Shown here piece after piece: positions 5,354 through 62,690 of a stretch of 64,000 nt of DNA (the first letter of the stretch is position 1; every line of letters starts with the position of its first letter). The DNA is from Kalaharituber pfeilii (Eukaryota > Ascomycota > Pezizomycetes > Pezizales > Pezizaceae): contig WHUZ01000041.1 in assembly GCA_015179045.1 (NCBI GenBank), positions 1 through 64,000 of the forward strand. The letters are read 5' to 3'. The notes under the pieces were generated by a model. The model saw only the letters and a program-made list of their open reading frames with translations. It was not told the origin of the DNA and did not search any database. A program made the position numbers and the translations under genes.

Positions 5354-5365
5354 GCTGGCCCACTT

Positions 5366-5414
5366 TTTTATTTTTATATCAGTGATCGCATGCCGTTCTA
5401 TGGGTTATGGCGAT
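5366..5414 (-). mobile_element. F1 tail-only retroposon (49 bp)
   Basis: A perfect 12-bp target-site duplication GCTGGCCCACTT (5354-5365, 5415-5426) brackets only the F1 hairpin and an A-rich tail. The 5' end is at ATCGCCAT, the base of the hairpin. Confidence 0.9.
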
Positions 5415-5468
5415 GCTGGCCCACTTAAGAACGCTGCTTCAGCACAAGTACCACTAGGTACTTGTACG

Positions 5469-5790
5469 TTTATACTAGCAGTAGCCCGCCTCCCGACCGG
5501 GAGGCGTGCTGCAGCGAGCGGTGAGTGGCCCCCCCGCCATCAGGCCGTATGATAGACAGAGATACTTGAGAGAGGACCCTACTTGCTTCGCTCAGAGGTC
5601 GATATCCGTTGAGGGGGTACCTGGTGTAGGGGGGACTCTGCCGTTGTTGTTGCCAAGGTATGGCGTCGCACGTGAATGTTGTGGTGAGTGACAGGGGTCA
5701 GGGGACGCCAAGAGGGATGTACAGTAATTCAGTACTATTAGCAGTAACCCGCCTCCCGACCGGGAGGCGAGCTGCAGCGAGGGGTAGAGG
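5469..5790. repeat. two direct copies of a hairpin-bearing repeat
   Basis: Near-identical segments of about 45 bp at 5469-5512 and 5740-5786 each contain the perfect palindrome CGCCTCCCGACCGGGAGGCG followed by a CTGCAGCGAG(C/G)GGT-type sequence. Related broken copies begin near 7518 and 7900. Sequence after the first copy (about 5545-5680) is paralleled at 7668-7760, so a larger repeat family is present. Confidence 0.7.
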
Positions 5791-5873
5791 ATTATGGATA
5801 CACTGTATTTGCACACAATGACCCGCCTTCTGACTGTCAGGCGCTTGTCAGTTTTAGTAGGTTACTGTGAACT

Positions 5874-5980
5874 GACCTGCGCTTAGTGTAGCGGTTAACC
5901 TCTTGGTTAACTTAGCGACATACTGAGTGTAGAATTGAGGGCCTGAGTTCAATTCCTTCGAGAGCCGAATGATGGAAGAG
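5874..5980 (+). other. tRNA-like A/B-box sequence, possible SINE head
   Basis: The stretch GCTTAGTGTAGCGGTTAACC resembles a pol III A box. GAGTTCAATTCC, about 50 nt downstream, resembles a B box. Acceptor-stem pairing and a clean T-arm cannot be drawn, so this is a degenerate tRNA-derived sequence at best. Confidence 0.25.
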
Positions 5981-6105
5981 GGGTTGTCCGGCACCTTAGG
6001 GGGGTCTGTAATTCCCCGGTTTCGCAAACATATCTGGTAGGCTGCCTTGGTAGCTGAGGATCCCTGTTGCGAAACCGGCGTAAGTCGTTTTACTTTTCAC
6101 ATATA

Positions 6106-6977: not shown

Positions 6978-6979
6978 TA

Positions 6980-7549
6980 ATTTTTTTTTTTCAATTTATC
7001 ACTACTCTCACATGCAGTTGTATGGTATTTTTACATATGGTTTACCGTCTATGCGGCGTATGCGGTTTATTTTGATTTTTATCATGGAGTTAATAGAACT
7101 TCAGTATAGACAATGTTTTCTGTAGTTTCTGGACCATTTTCTGGCCATAAAACTGCTGAATTATTGACATCTGTTCCACATGATAGTGCAACATACAGCT
7201 GTAAATGCCAGTGGCAGTAGAAGTACCAAGTACCCTGTGCCAGTATGTGCCAGCAGGATATACTATACAGTATAAAACCGTCCACGCGAATCGTGGTGTA
7301 TAAGCGGTGCATACTGCGCGAACTGTGGTGTAAAAGTGGTGCTGTAAAAAATGGCACTGTAGGGAGCAGTGCTATAGGAAACTAAGTATGATATGTAGGG
7401 ACCGTAATATAGGCTAAACTGGAGGCGAAAATGCAGGCGGAAGTGCAGGCGGAAGTGGTGGCCGAAGTGCAGGCGGAAGTGCAGGTGTGAAGTGCAGGCA
7501 GAAGTACAGGCCGAAGTGCAGTAACTGGTCTCCCAACCGGGAGGCTCTC
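6980..7549. other. repeat-rich spacer with a 12-bp minisatellite
   Basis: Starts with a poly(T) stretch, possibly a degenerate retroposon tail (6981-7040). It also contains GTGCCAGTA/GTGGTG-type short repeats (7200-7350). Between 7420 and 7520 there are about eight imperfect copies of GTGCAGGCGGAA. No gene is supported. Confidence 0.55.
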
Positions 7550-7560
7550 CATACTACCAC

Positions 7561-7625
7561 AAACCTCGCCATAGCCCATAGGGCGGCACGCGAGTAATGA
7601 TATAAAAAAAAAAAAAAAAAAAAAT
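7561..7625 (+). mobile_element. F1 tail-only retroposon (65 bp)
   Basis: 11-bp target-site duplication CATACTACCAC (7550-7560, 7626-7636). The unit starts AAACCTCGCC, contains the F1 hairpin and ends in poly(A) of about 20. Confidence 0.9.
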
Positions 7626-10688: not shown

Positions 10689-10727
10689 TTTTTTTTTTTT
10701 TTTTTATATATCATTTATCGCTGGCCG
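10689..10727 (-). mobile_element. F1 tail-only retroposon, 39 bp including poly(A)
   Basis: 10-bp duplication CTCCCCTACC (10679-10688, 10728-10737) encloses only about 22 nt of F1 tail plus poly(A). It starts inside the hairpin and is the shortest copy in the window. Confidence 0.82.
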
Positions 10728-11485: not shown

Positions 11486-11535
11486 TAACATGTATAAAAC
11501 CTCGCCATAGCCCATAGGGTGGCACACGAGTACTG

Positions 11536-11575
<40 letters not shown>
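11486..11575 (+). mobile_element. F1 tail-only retroposon (90 bp) inside a LINE
   Basis: 12-bp duplication CCTCTTCTCCGC (11474-11485, 11576-11587). The unit is the F1 hairpin with about 15 extra 5' nt and poly(A) of about 34. It is inserted in the zinc-knuckle region of the surrounding minus-strand LINE. Confidence 0.88.
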
Positions 11576-13832: not shown

Positions 13833-13901
13833 CCTGCCATGGCGAACAGCTGCAAGCGGGGTCAAGTGATAAAAAAAAAAAAAAAAAAAAAAAAAACTAC
13901 A
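13833..13901 (+). mobile_element. F2 tail-only retroposon (69 bp)
   Basis: 14-bp duplication CTACAC(C/T)TGGCTGC (13819-13832, 13902-13915) with one transition between copies. It contains the F2 hairpin starting CCTGCCATGG and poly(A) of about 26. It sits in the zinc-knuckle region of the F2 LINE. Confidence 0.88.
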
Positions 13902-14088: not shown

Positions 14089-16827
14089 CATTACTCGCGT
14101 GCCGCCCTGAGGGCTATGGCGAGATTAGTTACATGAGATTAGATACATATGAAGGTAGAAGAAAAGGAATGAGAAAAAATTCTGTGTGTCTCCTATGCCC
14201 CTACCCACTCCAAGATGTCTCTTAGTGAGTCTATGTCCTTCTAATAAACCCTCGCCATAGCCCATAGGGCGGCATGCGAGTATTGATATAAAAAAAAAAA
14301 AAAAAAAAAAAAAGAGTCTATGTCCTTGCTCTTCGGAGGGGTGACCAAGTCTTGCGTGCCCCCTGGCCACTTTCGTTTCCATGTCCTGCACCTAGTGAGC
14401 ACAGGTTCGGTGGTCTCCTCCTCCCCACACCACCGACATTCTGGGCTGTCTGCTTTCCCGATTTTGTACTGCCATTCCGTACTGACTTGCCGCCCAGTAT
14501 CCCTGTTAGTGTGGCTATGTGTCGACTTCCGAGTCTTATCAAGGGACGGTAGCTGAGCCCTAGCCGGTTTCTCTCTGTGGCGCGCTGATGTCTCGAGGTT
14601 TGTCGTATCCCATCTTCCGTTATGGTTTCATCTTGGTAGGGGAGGCATGTGCCGATTTTCGCAGCTGTGTCTGCCTCGGTGTTTCCTTTGACTCCTATAT
14701 GGGACTTGACCCACGTCACTGCAACATCCCAGTCGCCTTGGTCTGTTCTGGCTTTCCAGGCGTCTCTGACCAGTTTTGCTGGTCCTTTGTGGGTGGGCTC
14801 TCCTCGGGCGATCTTTAGGAGCTTGGATATTGCTACCTTAGAGTCGGTTACGATTAGCAGTTCTCCGGCTTGATTGCGTAATGCTTCACTTATGGCAATG
14901 AGTTCTGTGTCATTGATGGTGGTCTGTTCTCCTAGGTATGTGGAGGTGGAGGTGTCTTTTGTGTAGATGCCTAGGCCTGTCTTGTGGTCTATCCTACTCC
15001 CATCAGTGTAGATAGAGTTCCACCCCTTATCCTCGGCATTAGCTATGGCGTTCTCGAACTCGAGCTTGTCCGAGTCCGCAGGTAGCGCTAGTAGGATGGC
15101 TAGTAGTAGGGGGTCGTTGTGTGAAAGAGACCCCCGTAGGTATCTGCACTCATCATCCCTGTTTTGGATTGTCTCATCGTGGAACCATAGAGCCCTGGCT
15201 TCTACCCTCTAGCGTTCTCCTTCTAGGAATGTTTGGACCAATTCTAGGTTGGCTAGTCCTTCGACTAAGTCTCTCCTGGTGTCCCACGGGGCTGCGGTAA
15301 TCTTCTATGCCACTGTGTATTGCCATTTTTCTAGGTCTTTGATTTTGGCTGCCGGTGGGGACTGTCGTGAGTGGTCCTGCCATGCCCAGCATCCCCATGC
15401 GGCGATTGTGCGTGCAATGCTTGTGTATATCTGTCCTTTCTTACCCGGTACGAGGCGGGTTAGTCTCGACGCCACTCCCCATGCTGCATTCCGAGGAGTA
15501 GTCTCTTCTTGTGGTGTCGGGTGAATTTTAGCTCCCAATCCACAGTCAATCCAGTTAGCCTGTAGTCGGGGCCTTTTACCCCGAATAACAGTGTCTCGGA
15601 CTTGTTTGGATCAATTTCGAATCCATGCTCTGCTGCTGTTTCGGTGATTTTTGCCCTGTGTATCTTTATGGCTTGTCGGAGTTTTGGGAGTGATGGATGT
15701 GAGATTACGCTATGGAAATCGTCGACATATGACCTGGTAAAGTTGTGTTGGTCTATTTTCTCTGCCACCGGTGCCACGCCTATCAGGAATAGTACCAGGG
15801 ATAGTGGGGATCCTTGCGGTGTGCCATCTGTCATCCTCCCTGTCGCTCACGCCATAGTGGAGTCTACCCCGTCACCTCCCGGGGTGAGTCTTGGTCTCGT
15901 TTCTGACTCTTAAGACTGAGACGGCCTTATATACCCCTTTCAGGGCCACTATGTGGATTGCGCCTTTGCACCTTAAGCCCCTTCGCTAAGTTTCCGCTCC
16001 CTTCAGAACCAACTGCCGATAACTACACCCGCCGAGTTGCAGGCCATGCCCTCACCTATGCCAATGGCATTTTGACCCTTAGGCCCCCCACAGGACTCGA
16101 AGCACAGGTTTAATATTTCATGACTAGTAGTTCTGTAGCATAGTTGTGAGTGGTGATCCCGAAGCTTTGAGCATTGAAACCGCTGGGACCGACACCGGCT
16201 TTAGAACCATCCTGTCGAGCCCTCTAAGCCCCTACAGCTTAGAGACTGCCACCCAGAAGTTGTCAGGCTTCCTTCCGGCTACCAAGGCTAATCCACTGCT
16301 AGATCAAATTTGTAGCTTTCCAGGCCCTCGACAATGTTCTGTCTGCAGTTGTGACTAGCATGGCCCACAGCGTCTCGCCAGGTATCCTAATCCTGAAAGT
16401 AGTCCTCTTGGATAGAGGTACACATACTCTCAGTGACCAGTCCTCTACCCAACTAACCAATGGGTCTGCGGGAGAGCTCCAGCTATGCAAAGTCGGTGCT
16501 GCACATTCCGGACATCAGAATAATAGTACTACACATTCTGGTGAGTCCCAGCTATGCAAATCCATTCTGCCCTGGCTATGCACACCCAATCCTGCACATT
16601 CCGGTCACTCAACCTAGCCACTCCTGTGATTGCCCACGAGGGGTGACCTGTCTCTCACGCTAGCACTTGCACATTTGGGCCAGTTCGTTAACCTGGTAAC
16701 AGAGAGTCGGTTGGTTTTAGGAGGTATGTCCACGAAGGTTACTCCCTCTTCCCTTGGTTTGATTGCTCCCACCAGGGCTCCTTCGTGGGTGGCGGGCTCC
16801 GGCTTTGCCGGCCGCACCCGCCACCGC
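14049..16827 (-). mobile_element. F1-family LINE, 2.78 kb, minus strand, degenerate
   Basis: 10-bp duplication AGTGCTGGGA (14039-14048, 16828-16837). Reading right to left: an unclear 5' part (16.8-15.9 kb); RT with TDGTPQGSPLSLVLF (about 15834-15790) and YVDDFHSVIS (about 15735-15705); RNase H terminal motif VKSHIGVKGNTEADTAAK (about 14715-14660); post-RNase H region and zinc knuckle (about 14450-14390); F1 hairpin (about 14095-14125); poly(A) of about 35. Frames are broken throughout. Upstream RT motifs and an endonuclease were not recognised, so it is truncated or rearranged. A tail-only F1 copy is nested at 14241-14313. Confidence 0.82.
14241..14313 (+). mobile_element. F1 tail-only retroposon nested in F1 LINE (73 bp)
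   Basis: 14-bp duplication GAGTCTATGTCCTT (14227-14240, 14314-14327). F1 hairpin plus poly(A), in opposite orientation to the host LINE. Confidence 0.9.
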
Positions 16828-17152
16828 AGTGCTGGGAGGACTTAGAGCAGAAAGGGTGGAAGCAGGAGGGGATAGAGGGCAGCCCAGTCGAGGTATGGTT
16901 CGCCAGCCTCGATCTGGGCTAACTGAAGGGCCGGAGGGTACGTTGTGTACCAAGCGTGTACGTAGTGTAAGGTAGCTGCTTTAACCTGACCCGGGTATAT
17001 GGGTCCCTGCCATAGGCTGGTAGCATGTATGCGGGGTTACGTGACTCAAAAAAAAAAAGAAAAAAAAAGCAGTCAGATACACCAAGGTTTTTCCCTCTTT
17101 TTTGTCTTGAGATATCTTGAATTTAATCACCACTCTGTTATCCCTATTACAT

Positions 17153-17215
17153 GCCCTGCCATGGCGAACAGCTGCAAGCGGGGTAACGTGACAAAAAAAA
17201 AAAAAAAAAAAATCG
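17153..17215 (+). mobile_element. F2 tail-only retroposon (63 bp)
   Basis: 9-bp duplication CTATTACAT (17144-17152, 17216-17224). Starts GCCCTGCCATGG and ends in poly(A) of about 20. Confidence 0.87.
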
Positions 17216-17878: not shown

Positions 17879-20597
17879 TTAAAAGCCGGTATTGGAATGC
17901 TTAGTTCTACTATAGCTATCAGCTACTGGTGTGGGAACAGAAATTGGGATGTACTCACATCCTTGTTGCCGTCCATCGGGTAATATTGACATTTCGGTGA
18001 AGTTCTTTCGGTTGCCTCGATGCTGCCCTACTTCGACATTTGCTTGGGGTAGGCTCCATGTGTTGTGCATATGCGTGATAGCTGCTCCCGGAGACAGGGG
18101 CGCCATCACTGGGCCTGTGGTTCCCAAAGCACTAGACTGCCTCCCATCATCAGCAGGTGTTGGATGGTGGAGTAGTTTAGACCCCGCCGCGCAACTGTCC
18201 GCAAGCCATGCCGGGTTTGAGGGAAGATCTTGCGATGCTGTTGATGTCATAATGGAACTTCCTGGCCAACTATCTATCTCGGACTTGCAGCTACTGACAG
18301 TTGAGGGCCATCGCGGGCCGCGATGATATGGTTCAATTGCGCCCGTAGGTATGTCAGCATTGCTGTGTCCGGTAATGTCAACTTCGCACGACTTTAAACG
18401 CAGATTTCCTGGGCTCTCAAGCTCCGATGTGGGTGTAGTCAGAGCTACTTTTTCTGTCGCGAGCTGTAGAGCCATCCTTAAATTACTTGAGCTAGAAACA
18501 ATGCATTCGTCCCTCTCTTTAACAACTTCAAGAGGGTTTTCCGTACTCCAACGGCGAACGGAAGTCAGACTTTGAGCCCCATGCCGAGGGATGAATTGAC
18601 GCAGATCACTTGTACATTCATGCCTTTGTAGAATTCCAACTACTCCTTTGCTGTCTCTGCTAACGGCAGACGGAATGCTGCCAGTGCTTCCTCGCCGTAG
18701 CCGTTCTGCCGTTTCTGTATTCTTACCGGCTGAAATGCATTTATCTGCGATCGTTGTTGCAGTTGCAAGATTTGCAGGATTGTTCCTCGCCATACTTGAA
18801 CGATAGTATCCTGACAGGAGTCCACGAAAAACCCCGAGCGTCGTGCTACTCTTTCGTCTCTTTTCGGGAGGATCTACGAGGCGTCCAACCTCCAAGTCGT
18901 GGTCCTGGCTGTCACTTATGGAATATCCAATTTCACTCTCATCCACATCAAGGTGTCGCTTCTTGAAGTCCTCTTCAGATGCGGGGTCCATTGTAGTAAG
19001 GCCCTCTATGGTAGGCATCAAGGAAGAGACGTCATTGAGACGAATTGGGCGTTGGTGGACTGCACGCTGCGCCGGTTGGCGTTGGGCAACAGTAACCTTC
19101 TTCTGTGTGAACCTTCGAAGGAGGGGGCGCAAAGTAGGGATGCAGAAGCACACGATGGAAATGGTGACTTCCATTTGCCCGCAGATTACCACGAGGTGCG
19201 TTCCATCTGTAGAGAGATTTAGTGTTTAGCATGTTGAAGGTACACCGAGCACTATAACAACAGAGATCTTAGGGGCGGGTAGTACATGTGAAGTCAAAAT
19301 TGCCCTGTATTTGGGGCAAGAAGCAAATACGCGCAACAGCGAAGGCGCATGCCCTATGTGATGAGTTAGGGTATTGCAACAAACTGTGTGCAGGGAACTC
19401 ATGCGACATACAATCCACCCATACAAATCAGAAGCATGGCGACGGCCTGCGTAACTCTCCCAACACGGTTGACCATTTCAGGCTTCGAACGCAGCCCCCA
19501 CACGGCCTTCAATGGTAAGAGCAACACCACAATGTCACCAAAGAGATTCAACGCTGCCGTGAGAAAGAACAGCTTCTGAACATTGATGCAGTTACCAACG
19601 TCACCTCCAGATTTCAACTGTGCTTCTGGGGTTGAGGCCACCCTCATGCGGAGATCCCAAGCGGCATCCACAGGCCTGCATTGAAAAAAGTAGAGGAAGA
19701 TCATCGTCAACGTGCAAGCTCCAGAGTAGGCGAAAACAAGGAAAATCATGGCGCGTTGCCGATTAGTACGGGGGAGAAGCCGCAAGTAGAACAAGCACAA
19801 GCAAAGCCTTGTGAAGAAGAGAGTGACAGCGTGAAGGACTTGGTGCGCGAAAGCCAACTGGAAGGGCAGGTAACGTCATAGTCAGTATGGTGCGGTTGCA
19901 AGAACTGATAATTATGAAATGAACCAAGATTCCGTGCTTACATACTTTATAAGCCTCAAGAACCTGAAGGGGCATGAGGTCATAGACATGAACCCCAAGA
20001 CCACCAACTTTAACAACTGTGGATAGCTCACAATATTAGTTTCAGTCTACTGTTGGTTATTCCGGTTACACCGTTGAGAATGTCCCTGCCGTAGGCTAGT
20101 AGCCTGTGGGCACGGTTAAATGACTCAAACGAGATAAAAAATGTTGAGAATGCTAAATGTGACCATGGTTTCAGACATGAAATTTACGTCTTTGAACTTA
20201 CATAAGCATTGCAAAACAGTGAAACCCACAGCAAAGAGCTATTTCACAAGTGATTAACTTCCGGTTCATTGACCTGTTGCGGTGATGGGTAACTCACCGT
20301 AGCTACAATCAATGAATAGTCTTCTGCCTCCCATGAACCATGGCCAACCATAATGGACCTGGCAGTAATCCGTAGAATCACAAGCATGAGTGCAATGCTC
20401 ATAGATATGACACTAGTGTACAGAACAGCCATTCCATGATCAGGGGGAACATAATTAGGGTTAGTACGTGCTGGATGTATGAAACCGATTGGAAGAAAAT
20501 TGAGCAGGTCTCGGTAATCGTCCTGCAGCCAGGCACCCATGAGTTCCGTAACCCGAGTCGAATCGCGCAAGGCGCTTTCGGAAATGCTGGTGTCCAT
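17879..20597 (-). CDS. PTH11-like seven-helix membrane receptor (fungal rhodopsin-domain family)
   Basis: Six exons, minus strand, phases agreeing: 20597-20298, 20238-20202 (37 nt), 20016-19946, 19857-19412, 19353-19286, 19206-17879; about 749 aa. Introns have GTGAGT, GTAAGT, GTATGT, GTATGT and GTACTA donors. Seven hydrophobic segments: TM1 before ILRITARS; WEAEDYSLIVATLFAVGF (TM2, completed by the 37-nt exon); KVGGLGVHVYDL loop; FFTRLCLCLFYLRLL (TM3); a FFQCRPVDAAWD loop; NLFGDIVVLLLPLKAVWGL (TM5); TM6 split by intron 4; VVICGQMEVTISIVCFCIPTLRPLL (TM7). This order matches the fungal Rhodopsin/PTH11-like family, implicated in surface sensing in some plant pathogens. The ligand is unknown. The long Ser/Thr/Pro-rich cytoplasmic tail (about 400 residues) is typical. 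Intron 2 carries an F2 retroposon. Confidence 0.88.
20083..20142 (+). mobile_element. F2 tail-only retroposon in an intron (60 bp)
   Basis: 10-bp duplication GTTGAGAATG (20073-20082, 20143-20152) around a diverged F2 unit starting TCCCTGCCGTAGG. It lies antisense in intron 2 (20201-20017) of the PTH11-like gene and lengthens it from about 115 to 185 nt. Confidence 0.85.
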
Positions 20598-26778: not shown

Positions 26779-26837
26779 CTTTTTTTTTTTTTTTCTTAAT
26801 CAATACTCGCATGCCGCCCTACGGGCTATGGAGAGGG
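26779..26837 (-). mobile_element. F1 tail-only retroposon (59 bp)
   Basis: 10-bp duplication ATAAAGCGCT (26769-26778, 26838-26847). F1 hairpin plus poly(A) of about 16. Confidence 0.88.
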
Positions 26838-27861: not shown

Positions 27862-28508
27862 AAATTTTTTTTTATTTTTTTTTTTTTTTTTCATATCAAT
27901 ACTCGCATGCCGCCTTATGGGCTATGGCGAGGTTTTATTTAAAGTAAAAGAAGAATAACAAATAAATAAATACATGTGGTGCCCGCGGTACTCATACATG
28001 ATGCGGGTTGAACGTCAACACGGGAGCCAGTATGTTCGTCCTACTTCCGTCTCCTGTCCCATTCATACTGGTCCGCTCTCAGCCATCGTCCTCCCTCTCC
28101 CAACCTCGGTAGTTTTCTCCAAATATACTATCGCTGAACTGGTTTTCTTTCCTTCGTCAACCAGTGTGCTCTCCTTCCTCAGCCAGCGGATCCCTGCTAT
28201 CTTGCCTAGGTCCTTGTTGTCTGCCTCCCAACCATTTTCGGACCTTCCCTAAGTCCTTGCTCAGGGCAATTCCATGTACGACGATGCCGGCTTTGGAGGT
28301 GGTGGTGGCATCGGGGGTGGTTGGTGAGGAGGAGGTCTTGCTCTTGGGGCGGGGGAGGGAGGGGCGGTGGGGAGACGGTCCTTCGGCATGTCTGATTGGG
28401 TGTTGACGCCGATCAGGGTGTTCTTTATTGGTTCTTGGCGCGAGGCTGAGTGAGTAGATGTGTTGACAACGGGGTTGATGAGCTCCCCTTGGGGGAAATT
28501 TGTGGTGT
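27862..28508 (-). mobile_element. full-length ORF1-only retroelement, short subfamily (copy 4)
   Basis: A 23-bp duplication beginning CAGGAGTGGG and ending GTGCCACGA (27839-27861, 28509-28531) gives exact limits and a length of 647 bp. Minus strand: a leader resembling the 5' region of copy 3 near 25560-25620; ATG near 28390 (MPKDRLPTAPP); short Pro-rich part; frame-shifted HGIALSKDLGKV block; F1 hairpin (27900-27930); poly(A). With copy 1 (689 bp) it suggests a unit size of about 0.65-0.7 kb. Confidence 0.85.
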
Positions 28509-29035: not shown

Positions 29036-32000
29036 ATGGAAGTGGTTGGTTTTGCCTTCGGCGTGGTGGGCCTCGCGGGTCCGTTCTCCAAGGCCTGCAT
29101 CAGTGGCTATGAGCTTTTGCGTGGTGCCGCCACCACCGCCGAAGACGCCGCGGATTTCCGTTTGCGAGTTGACACGGAGATGGGTTTGCTAAATTTGTGG
29201 ATAAAGCACTGGGTTAACCAACACAACGGGCGTATTAGGGGGAGTGCTCAGATCGGGGAGCAGGTCTGTGTGCTCGCCGTGGATATTTTGGCGAAAATCG
29301 GGACCCTCTTGTTGGATGCGGGTAAGTTGCAGGCAAAGTATGGGATCCAGGTGAGGTCGGGGACTGGGTTGCTGCAAGGGGAGATTCAGAGGGTAGGCAC
29401 CGGACTGGGAGGAGAAATTAAGAGGGTTGGCACGGGAACATCGATGTCGGCGGGTTCGGAGAGAACGATTGTGGAGAAAGGAAGTAGGATAGGTTTAAGT
29501 GGGTTGGAGGTATTGAACGAGGATGACGGCCAGGGGAAGTCGAAAGAAACTGTCAATCAACGACTCATTATGTCCCGAAGGTCCTCCGTGACGCTAATTC
29601 AGAACGGTGCGACACTCCCCTCAGAAGCGCCTGTACCAAGCCACTCTACATCGAAAAAGGAAAGCAGAATTCGGCGATGGCTACGCAAGGCTGGGTTCAT
29701 TAAATCGAAACCGCAATCCGCAAAAGTATTAATGCAACAAGGGACAATGAATGAAACTGCCTTTACTGCAATCGCAAACCCGGCCCAAGTCACAGATAAA
29801 GATGCTTCTCTGCAGGCCACCACCCCCGGGGGGTGCCTTCGCCCTTGGATGTCAAAAGCACCACTAAGCACGCGGGAGCCGTCCAAACACCGAGATTGAG
29901 CGAGCTAGACCTGTCAACGGCGCCTATGGAGGAAGTGTTGGCGACATTAGAATCGACAAAAGCGGAAGTCGAGGCCAACCTGACGCAGGTGCGGAGGTTA
30001 AAATGGACGATGTTGGATAAGGATAAGGCAATTCAATTGGCTGATGAGCTGAAAGCATGGAATGAACGATTGTTTGCCCTACTTCCACCGAGACGGCTCG
30101 ATCCCCGAGGTAGGCACGCAAGATCAGAAGAACATGCCATTTGAACCCCAGACATGACTGATGAATTGATGCAGGACCAAAGAGAAATAGACACTACATA
30201 GTTCCTCAGCGAGCAAGCCCAATATTTACCGGACGTGCGACTGCTCTCAGTCTACTTGAAGAGGCCTTCTTCGGCCCAGAACATGATGGTGACGGCGAGA
30301 CAGAAGACGACGAGGAACTTGAAAGACAGCGGAGGGCAGTCCTCTATGGCCTTGGTGGTGCTGGGAAAACTCAAATCGCACTCAAGTTTGCCGAAGACTA
30401 TCGGGATCGGTTCGATTCTATTTTCTGGGTTAATTGCAGCAGTACAGTTGCCATTGAAGAAGGGTTCAGGGAGATAACTGGTATTTTGCGGTTGCCGGTG
30501 GGAACTGCTAGTAACCCGGTTTCGGCAGTGAAGAACAGACTTGCGCAACTGAGAGAGAAAAATTGGCTTCTGATTTTTGACAACGCAGACGACATCCAGT
30601 TGGCGCCGTATCTACCGCAAGGGAATCATGGCAATATTTTGATTACGAGCCGCAATCCACGCGTCAAGCAGTATCTAGGTCTGCTCGACAAGCAACCATA
30701 CCACGTTGACGAAATGTCACCGCAAGAGGCGCAAGAACTGCTATTACGAGCTGCCAGGTTAATTGACGTGGAACAGATGAATCAAGTTGTCACGGTAGAA
30801 ACGCAAGAACATGCGCAGAGGATTGTTAAGACGCTTGGGTATCTTGCGCTGGCAATCGATCAGGCTGGAGCATATATCTCGAACAACGGCACCATCGACA
30901 CATACCTCGATGTCTATGAAAGCTTTAGGGCCGACCTAATGGAAATGAGAGAGTTTGAGGCGTCAGGCTACGCCTATGCTGTATATCAGACTTGGGAAAT
31001 CTCCTTTCAGGCAGTGAAGCAGAAGAATAAGGCGGCGGCGGATTTGTTAGAGGTCTTTGCATACCTTCACCATGAACGGATCCCTCGAAGTTTATTCGAA
31101 GCAGGAAGCGTCGACTTGGGTGAAGACGGGGCTGAATGCTACCCAATACAGCTCGAGGATTTGAAGCGGTTGTTGGCCTTATGTACATCCGTACAAGCTA
31201 CGGGAACCATAGCAGCAGCGCAATGGAGACCTTTTCATTTTGACAACGCGATTAACCAGCTTGTGAGCTACTCCTTAGTTAAGAAGAACGAACCCCCGAT
31301 CGATAAAGACCTGCCACCTACCTTCTCTATCCACCCACTAGTGCATTCCTGGATGCGCGATCGCAAGGCCACTGAGGAAAGCAGGAAAACAGCAGCGCAA
31401 AACAGCACGGTTGCGCTGCTGAGGCAAGCGGCTTTGGCGCCGACAGGCCAGACTGCTTACGCGCTACGTAGCCATCTTCAAACTCACATTGACTCGTGGG
31501 TTTTATCCATCCTTGAGATTGATCCGTTGTCTTCATCTCTTGGACCAACCCAGCGGGCACAGATAAAGACCATTGGGGCCTTCGCTGTGGTATACCATGA
31601 AGTTGGTCGCCTCCAATTAGCCACACGTTTGCGGGAACGTGTTCTCACCTGGTGTACGAAGAACCTAAGTCCACCATCACATCCAGATATTATAAAAGCG
31701 CGGACCGTGCTTGCAGAAACATACCGACGATCGACAGTTCGAATACCACAAGCACAGGTCCTGGACGCTGAAACTGTCGAGCTGCTGATGTCCGCACCTG
31801 AATTTGGGCCTGATCATACCAGTACAATCACAGCAAAACTGAACCTCGCAGCTTCATTGAGCGAAGCTGGAGACCGTCTTGGCGCACTGCTTTTGGAACA
31901 GGAGGTTATAGTTTCCCGCACCCGTGCTTTGGGTCCAGATCACATAGACGTTGCAGTAGCACGGGGAAATCTTGGTGTTTCACTCCTCCGCTTGCGGCGG

Positions 32001-32603
32001 TACCCGTCTGCAGAGGTGGAACTCCGTGCAGCATACAAGCAGCGGTTGGCGATAGTTGGTGAGAAACATCCAGGCACCCTGCTGAGCATGGGGAATTTGG
32101 CTGGGGCGTTACGAGGACAGGGAAGGTTTGAGGAAGCAGGCGAGCTCCTGAGACGTGTCATCGAAATTCGTACAGGCCTGCTAGGTGAGGATCATCAGGA
32201 CGTTGCGCGTGCGAAGTCAAATTATGGGTATACGTTATTCTCGGCAGGGAGGTTAGAGGAGGCAGAAAAGTTGGAGATGGAGGCTGCGAAGGCTCTAGAA
32301 GCGAAACTGGGGCCATATCATGCGTTTACAATGGATGCAATGAGTAATCTGGGTCAGGTGTACTTAAAAATGATGGAGGAGGAAACCCAGCAGGGCACTG
32401 GTACTGAGCTCGCTGTCCTTGAGCTCAGAAATCGTTGGGAAAAGGCACAGAAGACACTGGTGGAGTTGGTCGAGCGGAAGAGGTTTGTGCTGGGGGATAC
32501 CCATACATCGACGAAGGAGGCCGTGAAATTATTGGTGCAGTATTATGGTAGAGTAGGGATGAACAGTGAAGCGTACGAGTTCGAAACCCAATTTGGGTTG
32601 TGA
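29036..32603 (+). CDS. HeLo - NB-ARC - TPR (NLR-type) protein
   Basis: N-terminus MEVVGFAFGVVGLAGPFSKA with the following ~110 residues matches the HeLo domain (HET-s/prion-inhibition N-terminal fold), a membrane-active cell-death domain in fungal incompatibility. A charged linker follows, then NB-ARC: Walker A GLGGAGKT (30348-30371), Walker B WLLIFDNADD (about 30563), sensor GNILITSRNPR (about 30630), GYLALAIDQAGAYI, and an MHD-like IHPLVHSWMRD (about 31330). The C-terminus has about five 42-residue TPRs of kinesin-light-chain type (LGPDHIDVAVARGNLG, GEKHPGTLLSMGNL, GEDHQDVARAKSNYG, etc.). One clear intron is 30110-30174 (GTAGGC donor, TGACTGAT branch, ATGCAG acceptor). The frame also changes at a C5G6 run (29823-29833) with no convincing intron: a one-base indel, so this is either inactivation or an assembly error. 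About 1,165 aa if read through. Confidence 0.85.
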
Positions 32604-36424: not shown

Positions 36425-36472
36425 ATCGCCATAGCCCATAGGGCGGCATGCGATTAATGATATAAAAAAAAA
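36425..36472 (+). mobile_element. F1 tail-only retroposon (48 bp)
   Basis: Perfect 12-bp duplication AGTGGATCGAGA (36413-36424, 36473-36484). The insert starts ATCGCCATAG and ends after a short poly(A) of 10-11. One of the clearest copies. Confidence 0.93.
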
Positions 36473-43313: not shown

Positions 43314-43380
43314 ATCGCCATAGCCCATAGGGCGGTATGCGATTAATGATATTAAGAAAGAAAAAAAAAAAAAAAAAAAA
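43314..43380 (+). mobile_element. F1 tail-only retroposon (67 bp)
   Basis: Perfect 13-bp duplication TCTCTATATAGCT (43301-43313, 43381-43393). Starts ATCGCCATAG; A-rich tail. Confidence 0.93.
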
Positions 43381-44103: not shown

Positions 44104-44155
44104 TTTTTTTTTTTTTTTATATCAGTACTCTCGTGCCGCCCTATGGGCTATGGCG
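44104..44155 (-). mobile_element. F1 tail-only retroposon (52 bp)
   Basis: 10-bp duplication ATGCATCATC (44094-44103, 44156-44165). Poly(A) of about 14 and an F1 hairpin starting TTCGCCATAG. Confidence 0.9.
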
Positions 44156-44165
44156 AATGCATCAT

Positions 44166-46989: not shown

Positions 46990-47137
46990 TTTTTTTTTTC
47001 TTTTTTTTTTTTTATTTCATTGCTTCAGTGCGCCTTATGGATATAAGGTACAGTATGCCCTCTTTGTGAAGTCAACATTCGCGATCGGTCAGATTCCTGC
47101 CCTGGCGAATAGCTACAAGCTGGGTTACGTGATATTC

Positions 47138-48315: not shown

Positions 48316-50415
48316 CTAGTGCAGCAACACGGGGATCTCCACTGTCACCTTGAAGGGCCGCTTGAAGGGCAGGAATTTTTCTCCATCGTGCTTCCAAAGC
48401 AGAGTTGTAACCCGCCGCAAGTGAAGGTCGCATTCTTCGTTAATTTCGTCAGCCTCGGTGTGACCCACACCATCGTCGTCATCTGGAGAATCGTCCTCCT
48501 CATCGTCCTCCTCATCGTCCTCTTCATCGTCCGCATCGCCCTCGTCGCTGTCAGACTCACTATCCCCTTCACTATCATCATCTTCACTCTCAGTGTCATC
48601 CATGTCATCTTGTACTTTACCCAGATATCGACAGACAAGTATTATTCTATAGTCTTTCAAACGAGCAGGAACCTTTTCGCACTTGCGTGAAAGTGGAATG
48701 TGAAATAGTACATAGTCCTGGGATTCGTCAATGCTGCCAATGCGTAGGGCTTCATCCTTGTCAGCAGAAATCAGGGTAAGTTGTTTGTTACCCCGGGTTG
48801 CGGCGTATGCGTTCCCGACATAGCGTAACTTGCATTTCCAATACACACGACCCTTCTCGAAGCGAACTGTACCGGTAGCTGTTGATAAATCTTCAGCTTT
48901 AGGGTCTGGAGAGATTGGCTCGATGACGGAGACATCTGGAAATTTGCTGACTTGATTCCAGCTGGGAAACCAATGGCTGGAGGAGGGATGAGGAAAGTTA
49001 ACAAGTAGCTGATAGACCACGCCATAAAAGTCTGGACCTGCGAACTCCATGTGCATGGCAAAGCGACTCCATGCTGTATCAGGAGTGTCGGATGCCGTAT
49101 ACACTGGTACTACGTCGCAGGCCCCTAATATTGCACAGAGACCTGCAACCCTGTCAACTGGGTTTGAAGCGTGTCGAATATTCATCTCGGAGAGGAGCGA
49201 CGTAATATCATCCTCCTTCACAAACTGGTCAAGTTGGTCCAGGCGGGTTCCAAGTGTGGTTCCAGCGTCGTCAATCTGTTCGTGTCAGCCACTGTTAGCA
49301 AATCCTTTCATACTTTTTGCCACAAGTGTATCACTCACCACGGCCTGAAGTAAATCCTGAGCTTGTCCAGTGCCTCCGATTATAACTTTGTCGGCACCCA
49401 GAGTCTCCTGTATTGTCCATGCACGCCGTAGCCAATGTCGCTCGTGAGTCCAGCCTTCTGCTTTGAATGGCCTTCCAAGCCCACTAAAATACACTACTAC
49501 GTGATTCATATTATAGATAAACCCAATGAGTGGTACATCAAGTTTCCATTCTTCTCTCCTAATCTTTTCCCGTTTAGGATCTGTGGGATACTCTTGTCGG
49601 AGACACAAAACGTCTACCCATGCATATCTACAGCCCAATGCAAGCAATTGTGCACGGAGATCTTCGAGAGTAATGTCAGCTGGGATAGGCACTGGCCACT
49701 CAAAGTCGTTCACTGCTGTCATAACTGTTTGTCTTTCAGCTTCTGGAGCCCATGAATGAGAAATTGGCCAGACATCTATGTGTAAAGCGCTGCGGTTTTT
49801 CAGTAGCCATATAGTCGGAATAACCTTGTTATTACACACATCCCAAACGCGACGCGGCTCGGAGGTGACAGCATTCTCAATGAATTCATTTCCGTTACCA
49901 TCAACCTCAAGTCGCTCACTGCCGTAGAAATTTTCCCAAATGGAGGATTTTGGACGGTAATTTTTCGGGTCATAACCTTCGGGGTCAAGCCGGGATAGCT
50001 TATCTGGATTTTCTATCAAAGCGCCCAACCATGCGTTGACAGTACCGAAATGGGCATTCTTCTGAATGAAAAAGGAGAACCATTTCTCCGTAACTTGACC
50101 GAGCCTGCGCTTCCTATGTTGACCCAGGGAGTTTGTTTCACCAGGCACATGGCCCCGGAATTCTCGCACTTTTGCCTTCAATTCTTCCAATGTGAGTTTG
50201 CCGCACTGGAATTCGGATTCATCAGTTGTGAGTGCAACGCAGTCCTGAGCAATGTCCACGTTCAGATCCTTTGAAAATTTATTTTTATGTTTCAGTTTCT
50301 TCGGATGGCACCAATACCCGGGATTATCTCTATATCCGGTGACAATCCATCGCCCCTCAGGTCCGCTAAACTGCCCAGGCTGCATGTTGGAAGGTAAAAA
50401 GACAACGAGAGACAC
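48316..50415 (-). CDS. HET-domain protein with acidic C-terminal region
   Basis: Two exons, 50415-49339 and 49275-48316, joined by a 63-nt intron (GTGAGT donor, GCTAAC branch, GAACAG acceptor; phase 0); about 678 aa. The HET domain is shown by DVWPISHSW (about 49775), a central CRYAWVDVLCLRQ (about 49635), IYNMNHVVVYFSGLG (about 49520) and WLRRAWTIQETLGADKVIIGG (about 49440-49370), the usual motif order in heterokaryon-incompatibility proteins. Upstream are ~200 residues of unknown function. Downstream is a ~300-residue region (DRVAGLCAILG..., typical of the family C-terminus). A run of Asp/Glu/Ser (about 48610-48440) is probably disordered. The family mediates non-self recognition and cell death, but most members are uncharacterised. 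An alternative start is the Met near 50385. Confidence 0.85.
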
Positions 50416-50872: not shown

Positions 50873-50942
50873 TTGCCCTGCCATGGCGTACAGCTACAAG
50901 CGGGGTTACGTGAAATATATATATAAAAAAAAAAAAAAAAAA
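50873..50942 (+). mobile_element. F2 tail-only retroposon (70 bp)
   Basis: 10-bp duplication TCCAACTATT (50863-50872, 50943-50952). Starts TTGCCCTGCC; (AT)n then poly(A) tail. Confidence 0.88.
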
Positions 50943-51297: not shown

Positions 51298-51739
51298 TTT
51301 TTATTTTTTTTTTTTATTTCATTACTCGCGTGCCGCCCTGTGGGCTATGGCGAGGTTATTTTAGGTACATGTATGAGAGAGTAGAAAGAAAAAACGAAAA
51401 GAAAAGAGGAAGAAAGAAAGATTATTCCTGTCCTGCCCATTCCAGTATCTCCGCGATGTTTGTCTCCTTATCCGGTTGCCTTAGTCCTCCCGCTCCGTCC
51501 CTTATCTTTCTCCTCCATGTCTGGCAGTCGTTGGTTATGTGGGTTAGGTTCTCTGGTGCTCTCCCACACCATCTGCATTCTGGGGAGTCGGCCTTTCCTA
51601 TGGCGTATCTCCACTCTTTGAGCCCCTTGTTCCCGAGGATCCCGGCCAGGGTTGCGATTCTCCTGCGGTTGTCTATGCTTTGGAGGGGTCGATAGGAGAG
51701 GTGGAGGCGGTTCCGTTCTTCGGCCCTGAGGCTTTTGGC
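51298..51739 (-). mobile_element. 5'-truncated F1 LINE (442 bp)
   Basis: 13-bp duplication GAGGTTAATCATT (51285-51297, 51740-51752). The minus-strand frame is open for about 105 codons: RLHLSYRPLQ...LAGILGNKGLKEWRYAIGKADSPECRWCGRAPENLTHITNDC, i.e. the post-RNase H region and zinc knuckle of a LINE ORF2, ending QEWAGQE-like before a 3' UTR, F1 hairpin and tail. It is the best-preserved ORF2 C-terminus in the window. Confidence 0.88.
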
Positions 51740-52296: not shown

Positions 52297-52868
52297 TTTT
52301 TTTTTATCAATTTTCATTACTCGCGTGCCACCCTATGGGCTACGGCGATATTAGGGGCATAGGAGATGAAGGGAAAAGGAGAAGAAATAAAGACCAAACG
52401 GTAACTCTGTCTGTCCGGTGCCTCTTCCCCCTTAAGGTTCTATCCACCTCAGTTCCGCCAACGAGTCCCCTCTGCTTCGTCCCTCTCTGGTGGTCGGAGT
52501 ATTGCGTCAAGTGCCTGGCCATCTCCTTCTCCACTCCCGCCATCCCAAATGTGCATCGTCTTTTTTTTTTTTTTTTATATCAATACTCGCTTGCCGCCCA
52601 ACGGGCTATGGAGAGAATGTGCATCGTCGTCTCCTCCTCTTCCTCGCAGCACCTGCACTCCGATCCGTCCGGCTTGCCTACCTTGTAGCCCCACGCTCGC
52701 ACGCCTTTGCCCCCCATTAGGCCAGCCAGAGTTCGCATTCCGTGTAGCCTTTGTAGGGGCGTGTAGGTTAGCCCCAGCCTGTTCCTTTCCTCCGCTCGCT
52801 ATTCCTTCGCGTGCTGGCGCATGCCCGCCTCTGTGACCATTTCCTCCCGGTACTGCATGAACGTGACT
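52297..52868 (-). mobile_element. 5'-truncated F1 LINE (572 bp) with nested tail copy
   Basis: 12-bp duplication AGTTCCAACTTA (52285-52296, 52869-52880). Minus strand: post-RNase H and knuckle region in broken frames, 3' UTR, F1 hairpin (52320-52345), poly(A). Confidence 0.85.
52561..52615 (-). mobile_element. F1 tail-only retroposon nested in an F1 LINE (55 bp)
   Basis: Perfect 13-bp duplication AATGTGCATCGTC (52548-52560, 52616-52628). Hairpin and poly(A) of about 16. Confidence 0.92.
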
Positions 52869-53022: not shown

Positions 53023-53084
53023 TTTTTTTTTTTTTTTTTTTTAATATCACATAACCCCGCTTGCAGCTGTTCGCCATGGCAGGG
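53023..53084 (-). mobile_element. F2 tail-only retroposon (62 bp)
   Basis: Perfect 12-bp duplication CTGGGCCACCAG (53011-53022, 53085-53096). Starts CCCTGCCATGG on the minus strand; poly(A) of about 20. Confidence 0.92.
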
Positions 53085-53567: not shown

Positions 53568-53632
53568 ACCCTGCCATGGCCAAGTGCTACAAGCGGGGTT
53601 ATGTGATTAAAAAAAAAAAAAAAAAAAAAAAA
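53568..53632 (+). mobile_element. F2 tail-only retroposon (65 bp)
   Basis: Perfect 15-bp duplication AATGGAGCGCGGGTT (53553-53567, 53633-53647). Starts ACCCTGCCATGG; poly(A) of about 24. Confidence 0.93.
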
Positions 53633-55828: not shown

Positions 55829-55880
55829 TGCAAGCGGGGTTACGTGAAATATAAAAAAAAAAAAAAAAAAAAAGAAGAAG
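55829..55880 (+). mobile_element. F2 tail-only retroposon, truncated in the hairpin (52 bp)
   Basis: 10-bp duplication CAA(C/T)CCAATT (55819-55828, 55881-55890) with one transition. Starts TGCAAGCGGGG, the 3' half of the hairpin. Confidence 0.82.
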
Positions 55881-57711: not shown

Positions 57712-58086
57712 CATTACTCGCATGCCGCCTTACAGGCTATGGCGAGGTTAGGTACAAGATAAAGTGGACAGAAGTAACCGGAAAACATTATGAAAATTAG
57801 ATGAATAAAGATAACGGTCAGTGCTCCCCCCCGCCCTCCTCCAGCATCTGCACTAGGCTCTGTAAATTAGATGAGTGAAATAGATAACAGTCAGTGATCC
57901 CCCCCGCCCTCCTCCAGCATCTTCACCAGGCTCTGTAAGTGATCTCCCTCTCCTTTTTTGAATTCCGGGGGCCGTCGGACTGCCTCCAAGCCCCCCGGCC
58001 ACCTCTTCCGCCATACCCGCATTCTTCCAATAGGTGTGTAGTGGTCTCCTCCGCCTCTCCGCACCATCGGCAGTCCGGGTCTAGCG
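57681..58086 (-). mobile_element. 5'-truncated F1 LINE (406 bp)
   Basis: 12-bp duplication AGCACGGATGGT (57669-57680, 58087-58098). Poly(A) of about 26, F1 hairpin, 3' UTR with a local ~75-bp duplication (compare 57822-57863 and 57894-57937), then the knuckle region. Confidence 0.88.
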
Positions 58087-59569: not shown

Positions 59570-59580
59570 CAAATCGATTG

Positions 59581-59654
59581 CCCTGCCCATGGCGAACAGC
59601 TGCAAGCGGGGTTACAGTACGTGAAATCAAAAAAAAAAAAAAAAAAAAAAAAGA
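59581..59654 (+). mobile_element. F2 tail-only retroposon (74 bp)
   Basis: 11-bp duplication CAAATC(G/A)ATTG (59570-59580, 59655-59665) with one transition. Starts CCCTGCCCATGG; poly(A) of about 24. Confidence 0.88.
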
Positions 59655-59665
59655 CAAATCAATTG

Positions 59666-60828
59666 TCTGTTGTTTAAGTTATGTTTTCGTTTTCCACCGT
59701 GAGGAGCTTCTTGTTGAAGTGGACTCATCGCTATTTCAAGGGGGTTTGCCGAAGACCTCTTCCGCGGTCGCGAGGGGTGGCGCATAGCACTAGTTGATAA
59801 TGAGATCATTTGTGCTTCCCATTATAGTGAGCACCGACCCACAATCCCAGTCACCCTCAGAAGAGGCCACTGAACGAGAACTCTCCATGGTGGAGAATTG
59901 CGGATATCGCTGCCTCTGAGGGCATTACTACTTCGCGCAACGGAGATCCTGATTTTTCCCTCCAATTTGTACTCTATTTACGATCACTATGGGTTGCACA
60001 GCACAATGTGATCGTCGAGATCCTTTAGGTCCTGTCTCGTGAATACTTTGTACTAGATTAAAGATAGTGAGGCAGTATCTTTGTAGCACGCAGTTAATAC
60101 CATTGTAAACAGGCTTGCAGCTCAAGTGACAGACACAGACAGACACAGGGTTCTCATATGATATACTGTGTTTCACCACATCTCGACGCACACCACAATT
60201 CGACGCACTTTCCCACCAAAACTTAGCGAATGAGAACGTGTATATCCCCCACGCACAGAACCTACATTTCTAAGCGCCTTTCAGGAGGCTTAAAGCAAGC
60301 ATCATTCTTCAGATCCTGCATCTCTACTTTTTTAAAAAAAAGTAGATATGAATGAATTATATCTCTGCACATTTTCACGTAAGTCTTGGCATTGCACAAA
60401 AAAAAGAGACCTGGCTACCGTTACCCTGAGTTCTCTCAACCAAACAGACAGTGTCCATCGTCAAGAAGTGTATGTGTCTATTTTCCGGAGATTTGGTAGT
60501 ACTTTGTTAACCAAATCTATCCTGGTATATACTCGTCAGTACAAGGTATTTTATCTCTAGAAACATCCAGGTGATCCCAGATTGCGTATGTTTCTACATC
60601 TTCACATAAAGGGATCTGCTGCATCTTCAGCAGCGTCTTCTGACCTTGTAGAATTTAAAGGAATTGCTGCTAGTCATCCGCCTTTCACTTGCAAGTGTTA
60701 CACTCAACCTCCTCCAAGTAGTATACCTTCAATTTCAAGTTCTTCTTCCGCCCATAAGAGCTCATCCTATTGAATATCCCACATACGCCAATAGTAGTGG
60801 AACAGAATAAATGCACAACCCTCTCCCG
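59666..60828. other. spacer, no supported gene
   Basis: Contains a short perfect palindrome of CTACTTTTTT type (about 60326-60346). No gene or bounded repeat. Confidence 0.3.
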
Positions 60829-61614
60829 TCATTCTTTCATGCGGTTCCACCTACGACACAGACATTCCCACTTTTCCTTCCCGAGGCCCTCCGCAATAAG
60901 CTTCCTCGCACGTTCCACTACCGCATGAGAGGAGCTTAGCACCTCCCCTCTGCTTCCTTGGTCCGTCAAGTCTGGATACTCCAACCACATGCGCAGCGTG
61001 CCCTCCCGCGTACTTGCCAATCCGACACTGGCGTAATGTGCAGGAATCGCAAAGTGTACAATCGACGCCTCACAAACGAAATCGCGGAGCAAACGAGAGT
61101 TTGCATCTCCTCGGAATAGTTGCGAAGCTGGTGACGCTCACTCTCTAACTCGGATTCTAACTTATTGAGCTGATGAGAAAGATGCAGCATGTCCTCCAGG
61201 CAGCAAATGTAAGGCTGAACCAGAGCTGATTGGGAGCAATGCGCATCGTTTCCATGCTTCTGGTCAAAGGCCTCAAATAATGGCTGGTCTTCGGGGATAT
61301 GCAGGTGAGGGCCAAGGCCAGGAGGACAGGAACCTGCAACCAGTTTCTCATACTTAGACTCTAGGGCCCGTCGTAAGGGGGTATCTTCCCCGTTGGAGCC
61401 CGCCTTGCTGGGTGGCCTTTGTGCCAGTACCGAAAAATCTTCTACCGAGCCGACCAAGCTTGAATAGTTCAAAGGCAAAGGCAGGCAGTTGCTCGTCTTG
61501 GAGGAAGTTGATCCTTGACTGCGCGTCGCGGATATTGCCCAGTGCAAGCTGTACTTTGTGAACGCTGAAGCTGCGAGCTTCTGTCAATATTGTGGACGGT
61601 TTGGACTCATTGTT
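60829..61614 (-). pseudogene. decayed gene with coding signal in three frames
   Basis: Minus-strand coding-like segments succeed each other in different frames without room for introns: ARSFSVHKVQLALGNIRDAQSRINFLQ (about 61580-61480), LRRALESKYEKLVAGS...LHLSHQLNKLESELESE (about 61370-61150), ASQLFRGDANSRLLRDFVCE...WLEYPDLTD...CRRWNRMKE (about 61130-60829). The middle part has a short coiled coil. Family not recognised. Indels at about 61480 and 61140 indicate a pseudogene, or missed tiny introns. Confidence 0.5.
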
Positions 61615-62394
61615 TCTGCAGATACCTTGAACTCATTGTGACGAAGTCAGAGGCCGACAATAGCGATCAACCCATGTGGTGGTGTAGTCTTAGTGGTGGT
61701 GCTCAACGGGCATGTTATTGGCACAATAAGCTCGGGTAATCGTGGCGTACTCAGAACCCTAAGTTCCATGCCAAGGCTCCTCCCAATTGCCAAGGCGGTC
61801 GGGCTACTGCTAGACATGCCTTAGTGCAATACTGAAATCGTAGCGATGTGTAAGGACTCAATTACCATTTTTCTCTATGTACGTGTATATATGACAATTG
61901 AGAACAGTATCACTCAGCTAACGTGTGCTCCGCATCTAGTTTCATCAGGAAAGAGTCCTAGTGTCGTCATCAGGTATGTCTTTCCATGCTCTACCATGTC
62001 ATCCTCCGAGAAGCTGAAGTTGCTTCACTATAGCTGTGCACAGCAATGAGGCGACTATAGGGTATGGGCTCCCGCAGTTCAGTCTACTATTCTCTTCACG
62101 TCCGTTCCTCGCTCCCAGTCGACGACTACTGTCGTTCATAAACGATGACAGCTCCACTTTCACACATGTCTGGAGAATCGGGGCCGGTGCCAGGCGTTGA
62201 TCGTGAACATAGGCATGCTGGCGGAGCAAGATATAGAAGCCCCGCAATTGCTGCTCAGGCGCACCTGATGCCAAGCTCAGAGCATTTGGCAGACACCGGA
62301 TGGGCAGTGGAGTGATGTGAGACTACCGGATAGTGAAGCTGCTGACACATTGGGCACGCCTTGCCAAGCATTCTGCAGCCCGCCCTCTTCTCTT
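61615..62394. other. spacer, nothing recognised
   Basis: Could include an upstream exon of the decayed gene (GTATCT donor near 61625). No other signal. Confidence 0.3.
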
Positions 62395-62690
62395 CTGCTC
62401 CCTCCACCTCATCGACTCATCCGCCTTCTCCTCTTCTGCTTCCATCCTTCTCTCGGTTCTCCAACTCATCACCCATCCATCGCCATAGCCCCTAGGGCGG
62501 CAAGCGATTAATGATATAAAAAAAAAAAAAAATCACTCATCCGCCTTCTCCTCTTCTGCTTCCATCCTTCTCTCGGTCCTCCACCTCATCGACTCATCCG
62601 CCTTCTCCTCTTCTGCTCCAATCCTTCTCTCGGTCCTCCACCTCACCGACTCATCCGCCTTCTCCTCTTGGGCTCCCACATACCTTCTCT
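62395..62690 (+). repeat. ~60-bp tandem repeat, about four copies
   Basis: Imperfect units containing CATCCGCCTTCTCCTCTTCT and CCTTCTCTCGGTCCTCCA recur at about 62405, 62540, 62597 and 62655. An F1 copy interrupts the array. Confidence 0.75.
62479..62532 (+). mobile_element. F1 tail-only retroposon in a tandem repeat (54 bp)
   Basis: 11-bp duplication ATCAC(C/T)CATCC (62468-62478, 62533-62543) with one transition. Starts ATCGCCATAG. Confidence 0.85.

Follow-up and report, generated by a model that had tools for sequence, protein, structure and literature searches.

The genome of the ascomycete Kalaharituber pfeilii contains many insertions that consist of one hairpin of about 40 nucleotides (nt) followed by poly(A). 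We analysed a window of 64,000 nt (contig WHUZ01000041.1 of assembly GCA_015179045.1, positions 1 to 64,000), in which an earlier note had described two kinds of such insert, F1 and F2, as separate micro-retroposon families with fixed 5' ends, each copy inside its own target duplication. Our results show that F1 and F2 are the 3'-terminal hairpins plus poly(A) of long interspersed nuclear elements (LINEs) with reverse transcriptase (RT) and RNase H, and that a large class of target-duplicated inserts comprises the hairpin alone and starts at the foot of its outer stem. A rarer tail, F3, judged by its short copies, is also a 3'-terminal hairpin with poly(A).

The 5' ends were determined in the window and in 118 further loci (L-numbers), which together gave 157 distinct cores, 155 of them usable (121 F1, 34 F2). 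Thirty F1, 10 F2 and 40 further F1 loci came from the top of the listed exact core matches; the remaining copies were bystanders in fetched loci or lay in the window. Since loci were chosen by F1, F2 or RT matches, the family mix is biased and the end position is not. Target duplications were called for 67/121 F1 and 26/34 F2 copies. Counted from the core start, 29 F1 ends lay at -6 to +2, two at -12 to -7, three at -24 to -13, three at -70 to -25, 17 at -300 to -71 and 13 beyond -300; the corresponding bins for F2 held 20, 1, 0, 2, 0 and 3 ends. Within -70 to +24, the peak at -6 to +2 took in 29 of 37 F1 ends and 20 of 23 F2 ends, compared with uniform expectations of 3.5 and 2.2 (p=3.7×10−23 and 4.5×10−18); mispaired flanks gave 0.75 (F1) and 0.11 (F2) in this bin. 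The fixed end at the hairpin base and its excess over ordinary scatter, both claimed in the earlier note, were thus borne out, and set against longer copies the distribution peaks at the hairpin base and is not smooth. Distant ends are under-called because the loci are short and the threshold rises with distance, which inflates the proportion of short copies among the ends called; the floors are 29/121 (F1) and 20/34 (F2). From 5' end to poly(A), the bodies measured 41.0±3.5 nt (F1, n=31) and 41.6±3.2 nt (F2, n=21).

A core-based search might make ends appear at the core even under smooth truncation, as copies cut within the core are invisible to it. Searches anchored elsewhere showed the same peak. 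With 137 tails as anchors it was unchanged; 14 of these tails had more than six core mismatches, several being F3 or diverged copies, and about three looked by eye as if cut within the hairpin. Anchoring on 210 A-runs gave 71 inserts with a direct-repeat score of at least 10, and the body measured 34-49 nt in 45 of them. Three of the others were shorter (5, 22 and 23 nt), four were 52-60 nt and 19 were 78-380 nt long. Null pairing of A-runs gave 5 matches in at most 1050 trials. Ends within the hairpin were rare in both scans. We rejected a core-selection artefact on the strength of the two scans; the genome-wide nested counts described below, nearly empty from -11 to -27, also speak against this explanation, which we find scarcely credible. 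One insert, at position 2807 (+) of L013, was nearly pure poly(A), with a 5-nt body in a 17-nt direct repeat.

The window itself contained 24 F1-core and eight F2-core matches at three or fewer mismatches (0.00 and 0.01 expected by chance; Table 1). Eight F1 copies with a clean target duplication start 1-12 nt before the core, that at core 11503 starts 17 nt before it, and one F1-type copy is cut within the hairpin; five F2 copies have clear duplications. Apart from these F1 copies and the one at core 62481, F1 cores of the window are parts of longer copies or lack a called duplication. Anchoring on A-runs only (53 runs, with a minimum duplication score of 10 and a minimum body of 15 nt, within 400 nt) yielded 15 inserts, of which 11 were 38-52 nt, one each 22, 55 and 60 nt, and one 380 nt long. 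That every unit lies inside its own duplication holds for most window copies but is slightly too strong: none was callable at core 47095 or for the copy near 55,830, that at 59582 is weak, and at core 62481 a duplication is indistinguishable from the surrounding 57-bp tandem array. This array (62401-62702) is broken by the F1 insert.

A search of the whole assembly (78.0 Mb, 360 contigs) with both cores located F1 at no fewer than 4340 places (19-mer, one mismatch allowed) and F2 at no fewer than 2915 (25-mer, two mismatches allowed), both counts being lower bounds, with about equal numbers on the two strands (2173 and 2167; 1483 and 1432). In all 96 copies examined, the tail was followed by an A-run of at least 4. 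The tail pattern of one F1 LINE subfamily occurred at 363 places at up to two mismatches, other subfamilies included. Among exact tails of this subfamily, 29/41 kept the next 9 upstream nt and 12/41 did not; the pattern with these 9 nt occurred at 47 places and with 16 nt more at 46 (up to two mismatches). The difference between 12/41 and 1/47 gave a Fisher p of 0.0004, with a slightly different mismatch rule in the two sets. Two of the twelve were in the duplication-called set (L005 at -4, L013 at -9), and almost no ends of this subfamily lay between -11 and -27. For F2, 2621 places matched the hairpin plus 2 nt downstream compared with 629 that matched with 7 upstream nt (both patterns 32 letters, up to two mismatches), copies with other upstream sequence being miscounted as short.

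From the list of an RT search, eight LINE-type regions (L071-L078) were picked by their longer RT match. In L071-L073 and L078, an F2 tail lies 95-126 nt past the end of a 723-codon stretch of the second open reading frame (ORF2). L074 and L075 have the F2 tail after a broken frame and are regarded as broken copies, since the longest frame stops well before the tail. In L077, an F1 tail follows 48 nt past the frame end. L076 had neither an F1 nor an F2 tail and was not counted as a parent. RVT_1 and RNase_H matches were present in both ORF2 segments tested (L071, L077), the domain content of Tad1-clade LINEs; against Rfam at a loose threshold, the same two loci gave sub-threshold matches only. 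F1 and F2 thus share their 3' end with ORF2-bearing elements of the same genome.

Upstream of longer F1 copies we found either the ORF2 C-terminus of diverse L077 relatives or a gag-like ORF, and a gag-like ORF also precedes the longer F2 copies L033-L035, although some of these gag and ORF2 matches belong to neighbouring elements. These upstream sequences indicate that the tails are common to several LINE subfamilies and their non-autonomous partners. Gag-like non-autonomous copies were seen in the window (3721-4185, minus strand) and in L033, L034, L035, L080, L082, L084, L086, L103 and L106; the distance from ORF end to tail was about 105-125 nt in F1 copies and 230-260 nt in F2 copies. A gag-like half-LINE thus seems to exist with either tail. 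HAL1-type half-LINEs of mammals keep ORF1 and the tail and have lost ORF2; the gag-like copies resemble them, with a candidate ORF1 that had no Pfam match. The description of F1 and F2 as separate families did not survive this comparison, as the same tails end ORF2-bearing LINEs and longer non-autonomous copies, and the extra 5' nt of short F1 copies mostly match, by eye, different LINE subfamilies among the longer copies.

The F3 tail (CCCTGCCATAGGCTGGTAGC, up to four mismatches) was found at ten places, a small sample. Three copies with duplications (score 9-10), at window position 20083 and in L023 and L002, end at -1, -1 and -2, and three others continue into shared upstream sequence. No ORF2-bearing F3 element was seen in the sample. 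F3 sites lie at window positions 17004 and 20083 and in L002, L023, L073 and L107; the tail is related to F2, with an altered inner stem.

Both hairpins are predicted to have two stems. The F1 fold has an outer stem (A/C)TCGC...GCGA(T/G) and an inner stem GCCC-ATA-GGGC; that of F2 has an outer stem (G/A)CCCTGC...GCGGGGT and an inner stem (T)GGC...GCT(A). Single-sequence folding energies were -12.0 to -14.3 kcal/mol, judged without shuffled controls. In minimum-energy structures of longer 3' untranslated pieces, L077 (F1) and the L071 F2 piece retained the hairpin, which was absent or partial in L075 and the L071 F1 piece. The basal F1 pair -2/27 was standard in 74/83 distinct rows (mean of 1000 shuffles: 42.4), as C-G in 47 and A-T in 24, where rows were counted irrespective of relatedness. 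This pair argues from sequence comparison that the 3' stem-loop is probably kept by base pairing. The most frequent end coincided with the first paired base (-2/-1 in F1, -1 in F2). End position was not correlated with poly(A) length (rho 0.04, n=31, F1; 0.07, n=21, F2), and its slopes against hairpin-to-poly(A) length were 0.14±0.16 and 0.06±0.14, where a fixed cDNA length requires 1. We therefore rejected a fixed cDNA length counted from the poly(A).

Paralogous sites that lack the insert and have one copy of the target were found for L035 (F1; L030, 96.8% over 190 nt) and L006 (F2; L092, 99.4% over 173 nt), and one with a target mismatch for L018 (F2; L035, 85% over 117 nt). The 99.4% identity of the L006 and L092 sites suggests a recent insertion. 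Blast matches spanned the joined flanks of 18/52 short copies, some of them local repeats; nine of the 18 were inspected and these three counted. L014, L016, L078, L081 and the window copy with core 52594 had diverged sites and no matching single target, and a candidate for L024 was discarded, its match lying elsewhere in the stretch. These data support insertion by target priming, accompanied by poly(A) and short duplications. Measuring ends by upstream homology between copies, independently of duplications, proved too noisy and was not used: among the 29 short F1 copies it gave 13-70 nt for 22 and 71-300 nt for seven, apparent homology that we put down to chance A/T-rich similarity. Ahead of an F1 copy, L004 and L007 are about 99% identical and represent a recent duplication.

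The earlier note had offered two sources of the fixed end, a discrete short template and a stop of reverse transcription at the hairpin. The first fits our data best; a stop at the folded hairpin fits badly, because such a stop predicts ends along the 3' arm, and few occur there. We give an even chance to the reading that short copies arise by target-primed reverse transcription (TPRT) of a 3' RNA fragment that has been cut back as far as the folded hairpin, to which the enzyme is probably bound. By analogy with LINEs of the 'stringent' type, the hairpin would be the recognition tail, bound by LINE protein before TPRT; that a discrete 3' fragment is the template is less certain than this role. 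Cleavage or decay of the LINE RNA would proceed from its 5' side and halt at the hairpin, folded and bound by protein; priming on the poly(A), the enzyme would then copy about 40 nt until the template runs out, either at the foot of the stem or a few nt past it. Copying of the 3' arm abolishes the stem, so that only a cut in the folded RNA simply marks its 5' base; ends that track the stem base, with few on the 3' arm or the inner stem, favour templates trimmed beforehand. In four of 20 short F2 copies, one or two junction nt (TT, TC, TT and C, by eye) were unlike the LINE upstream sequences sampled, as expected of run-off additions.

Several points weigh against the trimmed template. The extra junction nt could be later mutations. 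The 40-nt RNA is a prediction from genomic copies, and hairpin binding by ORF2 is extrapolated from zebrafish LINEs. Identical ends would result if a protein kept its grip on the 5' arm once the strands had parted. Covariation at F1 pair -2/27 may reflect few events inherited by many copies, perhaps in two lineages, while the other eight F1 pairs and all eleven F2 pairs are nearly invariant and do not exceed the shuffles, leaving F2 without such a signal. F1 ends also reach 6 nt past the core, and -12 in one window copy.

Alternatively, the enzyme may start on intact RNA and drop off after copying its own recognition hairpin. The switch from initiation to elongation would then fail, perhaps because the RNA-binding part of the enzyme does not let the 5' arm go or because the cDNA forms a fold-back. 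Short copies do hold the complete recognition element and little more, the end position is identical for F1, F2 and the three F3 copies, and duplication match scores are alike in short and long F1 copies (means 12.2 and 12.6). However, a plain structural pause would put ends along the 3' arm, where few were found, cDNA fold-back predicts release at the inner stem (about +7), where no peak was seen, and marking of the 5' base needs an additional assumption. Early release is a serious possibility that we nevertheless judge to be probably wrong.

A separate tiny gene whose 40-nt poly(A) RNA uses the LINE machinery would account for a fixed 5' end and many copies. As in short interspersed nuclear elements (SINEs), the 3' tail is common to a partner LINE; a head derived from tRNA, 7SL or 5S RNA is missing, however, as the window has no tRNA gene and no Rfam family at the gathering threshold, and the body is only about 41 nt long. 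An internal Pol III promoter would have little room in 40 nt. Moreover, the upstream nt of short F1 copies vary (aaacct, ggacat, cacct, tacct, atat, acat; by eye), and the -1 base of short F2 copies tracks the tail subfamily (by eye). On the varied upstream bases we rejected a stand-alone SINE gene, which we regard as quite improbable. It is more improbable still that all lengths insert and very short ones are retained more often. Short inserts should harm genes less, and by this general reasoning selection would favour them, but it explains neither the cliff at one position nor the scarcity of inserts of 5-30 nt and 50-75 nt.

The preferred reading, trimming to the bound hairpin, would have a further consequence, which we hold only tentatively. 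The short copies may form a separate class of retrotransposition product, in which the enzyme-bound hairpin is a protected footprint and the tail-only templates that survive decay or cleavage are inserted in large numbers. If so, stubs would account for as much as roughly three quarters of the main F2 subfamily (629 compared with 2621 places), and the LINE's own recognition RNA would be an abundant retroposon. An end fixed by structure in at least two hairpins offers a precise genomic readout of what the enzyme holds when TPRT starts, and it places the discrete-template and early-release models in a simple biochemical contrast. Spread over the genome, such units of about 40 nt, each bringing a recognition hairpin and its poly(A), are possible raw material for SINE tails.

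The cause of LINE truncation is an old question, and truncation is usually described as scattered. Truncated LINE copies share the 3' end, poly(A) and target duplications with the short copies described here; their ends are scattered, whereas here scatter was seen only in longer copies and the class of about 40 nt is fixed. According to a LINE review, most members are truncated at varied positions and measure 100-1,000 bp (PMC3747384). In zebrafish LINEs, the 3' stem-loop is indispensable, and the part of ORF2 between the endonuclease and RT binds it; LINE/SINE tail pairs are also named for the Tad1 clade (PMC4176376). Excerpts on stringent-type tails (UnaL2, ZfL2-1, ZfL2-2) describe, as here, a 3'-terminal stem-loop common to LINEs and non-autonomous partners and, unlike here, mention no large stem-loop-only class with a fixed 5' end. 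In Magnaporthe, the LINE MGL and Mg-SINE have similar 3' ends; Mg-SINE is longer than the inserts of about 40 nt (a 350-nt 3' fragment is mentioned), and recurrent junctions are internal template-switch sites rather than the base of a terminal hairpin (PMC2104539). Miniature inverted-repeat transposable elements have terminal inverted repeats and no poly(A), whereas our inserts have an A-run and a stem at one end. It is thus already known that LINEs and SINEs can have a tail in common, also in the Tad1 clade, and that ORF2 recognizes a 3' stem-loop (PMC4176376; PMC3747384; PMC2104539). Neither core sequence appeared in the papers searched, and no description of hairpin-only LINE copies was found in a search outside which most subscription journals lay; as far as this limited search goes, it is new that inserts comprising nothing but the recognition hairpin form a large class whose 5' end is set by structure.

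Table 1. Hairpin inserts and related features in the window. The 5' end is given relative to the core start; TSD, target duplication.
Feature	Position	Strand	5' end	TSD	Remarks
Gag-like ORF, 154 aa	3721..4185	-			3' end about 115 nt before F1 tail (core 3586-3605); non-autonomous partner
F1 hairpin-only body	5376..5414	-	-2	AAGTGGGCCAGC	core 5393; ends derived from printed sequence
F1 hairpin-only body	7561..7603	+	-6	CATACTACCAC	core 7567
F1-type insert, 22 nt	10706..10727	-		GGTAGGGGAG	cut within hairpin
F1 insert	11486..11540	+		CCTCTTCTCCGC	core 11503; 17 nt before core
F2 hairpin-only body	13833..13870	+		ACTACACCTGGCTGC	core 13832; one TSD mismatch
F1 insert	14241..14289	+	-12	GAGTCTATGTCCTT	core 14253
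F2 hairpin-only body	17153..17192	+	-1	CTATTACAT	core 17154
F3 short copy	20084..20103	+	-1	GTTGAGAATG	third, F2-related tail
F1 hairpin-only body	26795..26837	-	-4	AGCGCTTTAT	core 26814
F1 core, longer copy	27910..27929	-	-579	23 nt	gag-like ORF upstream
F1 hairpin-only body	36425..36463	+	-2	AGTGGATCGAGA	core 36427
F1 hairpin-only insert	43314..43360	+	-2	TCTCTATATAGCT	core 43316
F1 hairpin-only body	44119..44156	-	-1	AGATGATGCAT	core 44136
F2 core, long poly(A)	47095..47114	+		none callable	
F2 hairpin-only insert	50873..50924	+	-3	TCCAACTATT	core 50876
F1 core, longer copy	51333..51352	-	-387		carries LINE ORF2 C-terminus
F1 hairpin-only body	52577..52615	-	-2	GACGATGCACATT	core 52594; diverged paralogous empty site L003
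F2 hairpin-only body	53043..53084	-	0	CTGGTGGCCCAG	core 53065
F2 hairpin-only body	53568..53608	+	-1	AATGGAGCGCGGGTT	core 53569
F2 tail-only copy	55830..55852	+		none callable	without 5' hairpin part; coordinates from printed sequence
F1 core, longer copy	57725..57744	-	-342		
F2 core, probably hairpin-only	59582..59601	+		weak, one mismatch	
F1 insert in 57-bp tandem array	62458..62517	+		ambiguous	core 62481

The RT list also contained loci that, from their domain order, read as Ty3/gypsy-like long terminal repeat (LTR) elements. L041-L070 represent several LTR-type families, with many pairs at 97-100% protein identity and some long open frames. Elsewhere in the window, a HeLo-domain ORF followed by a TPR-repeat ORF (29036-32603, plus strand) is possibly one heterokaryon-incompatibility NLR-like gene, and a HET-domain ORF lies at 49285-50415 on the minus strand. 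HET and HeLo genes suggest a filamentous fungus. A 12-bp tandem repeat (AGGCGGAAGTGC-like) at 7399-7519 is possibly coding.

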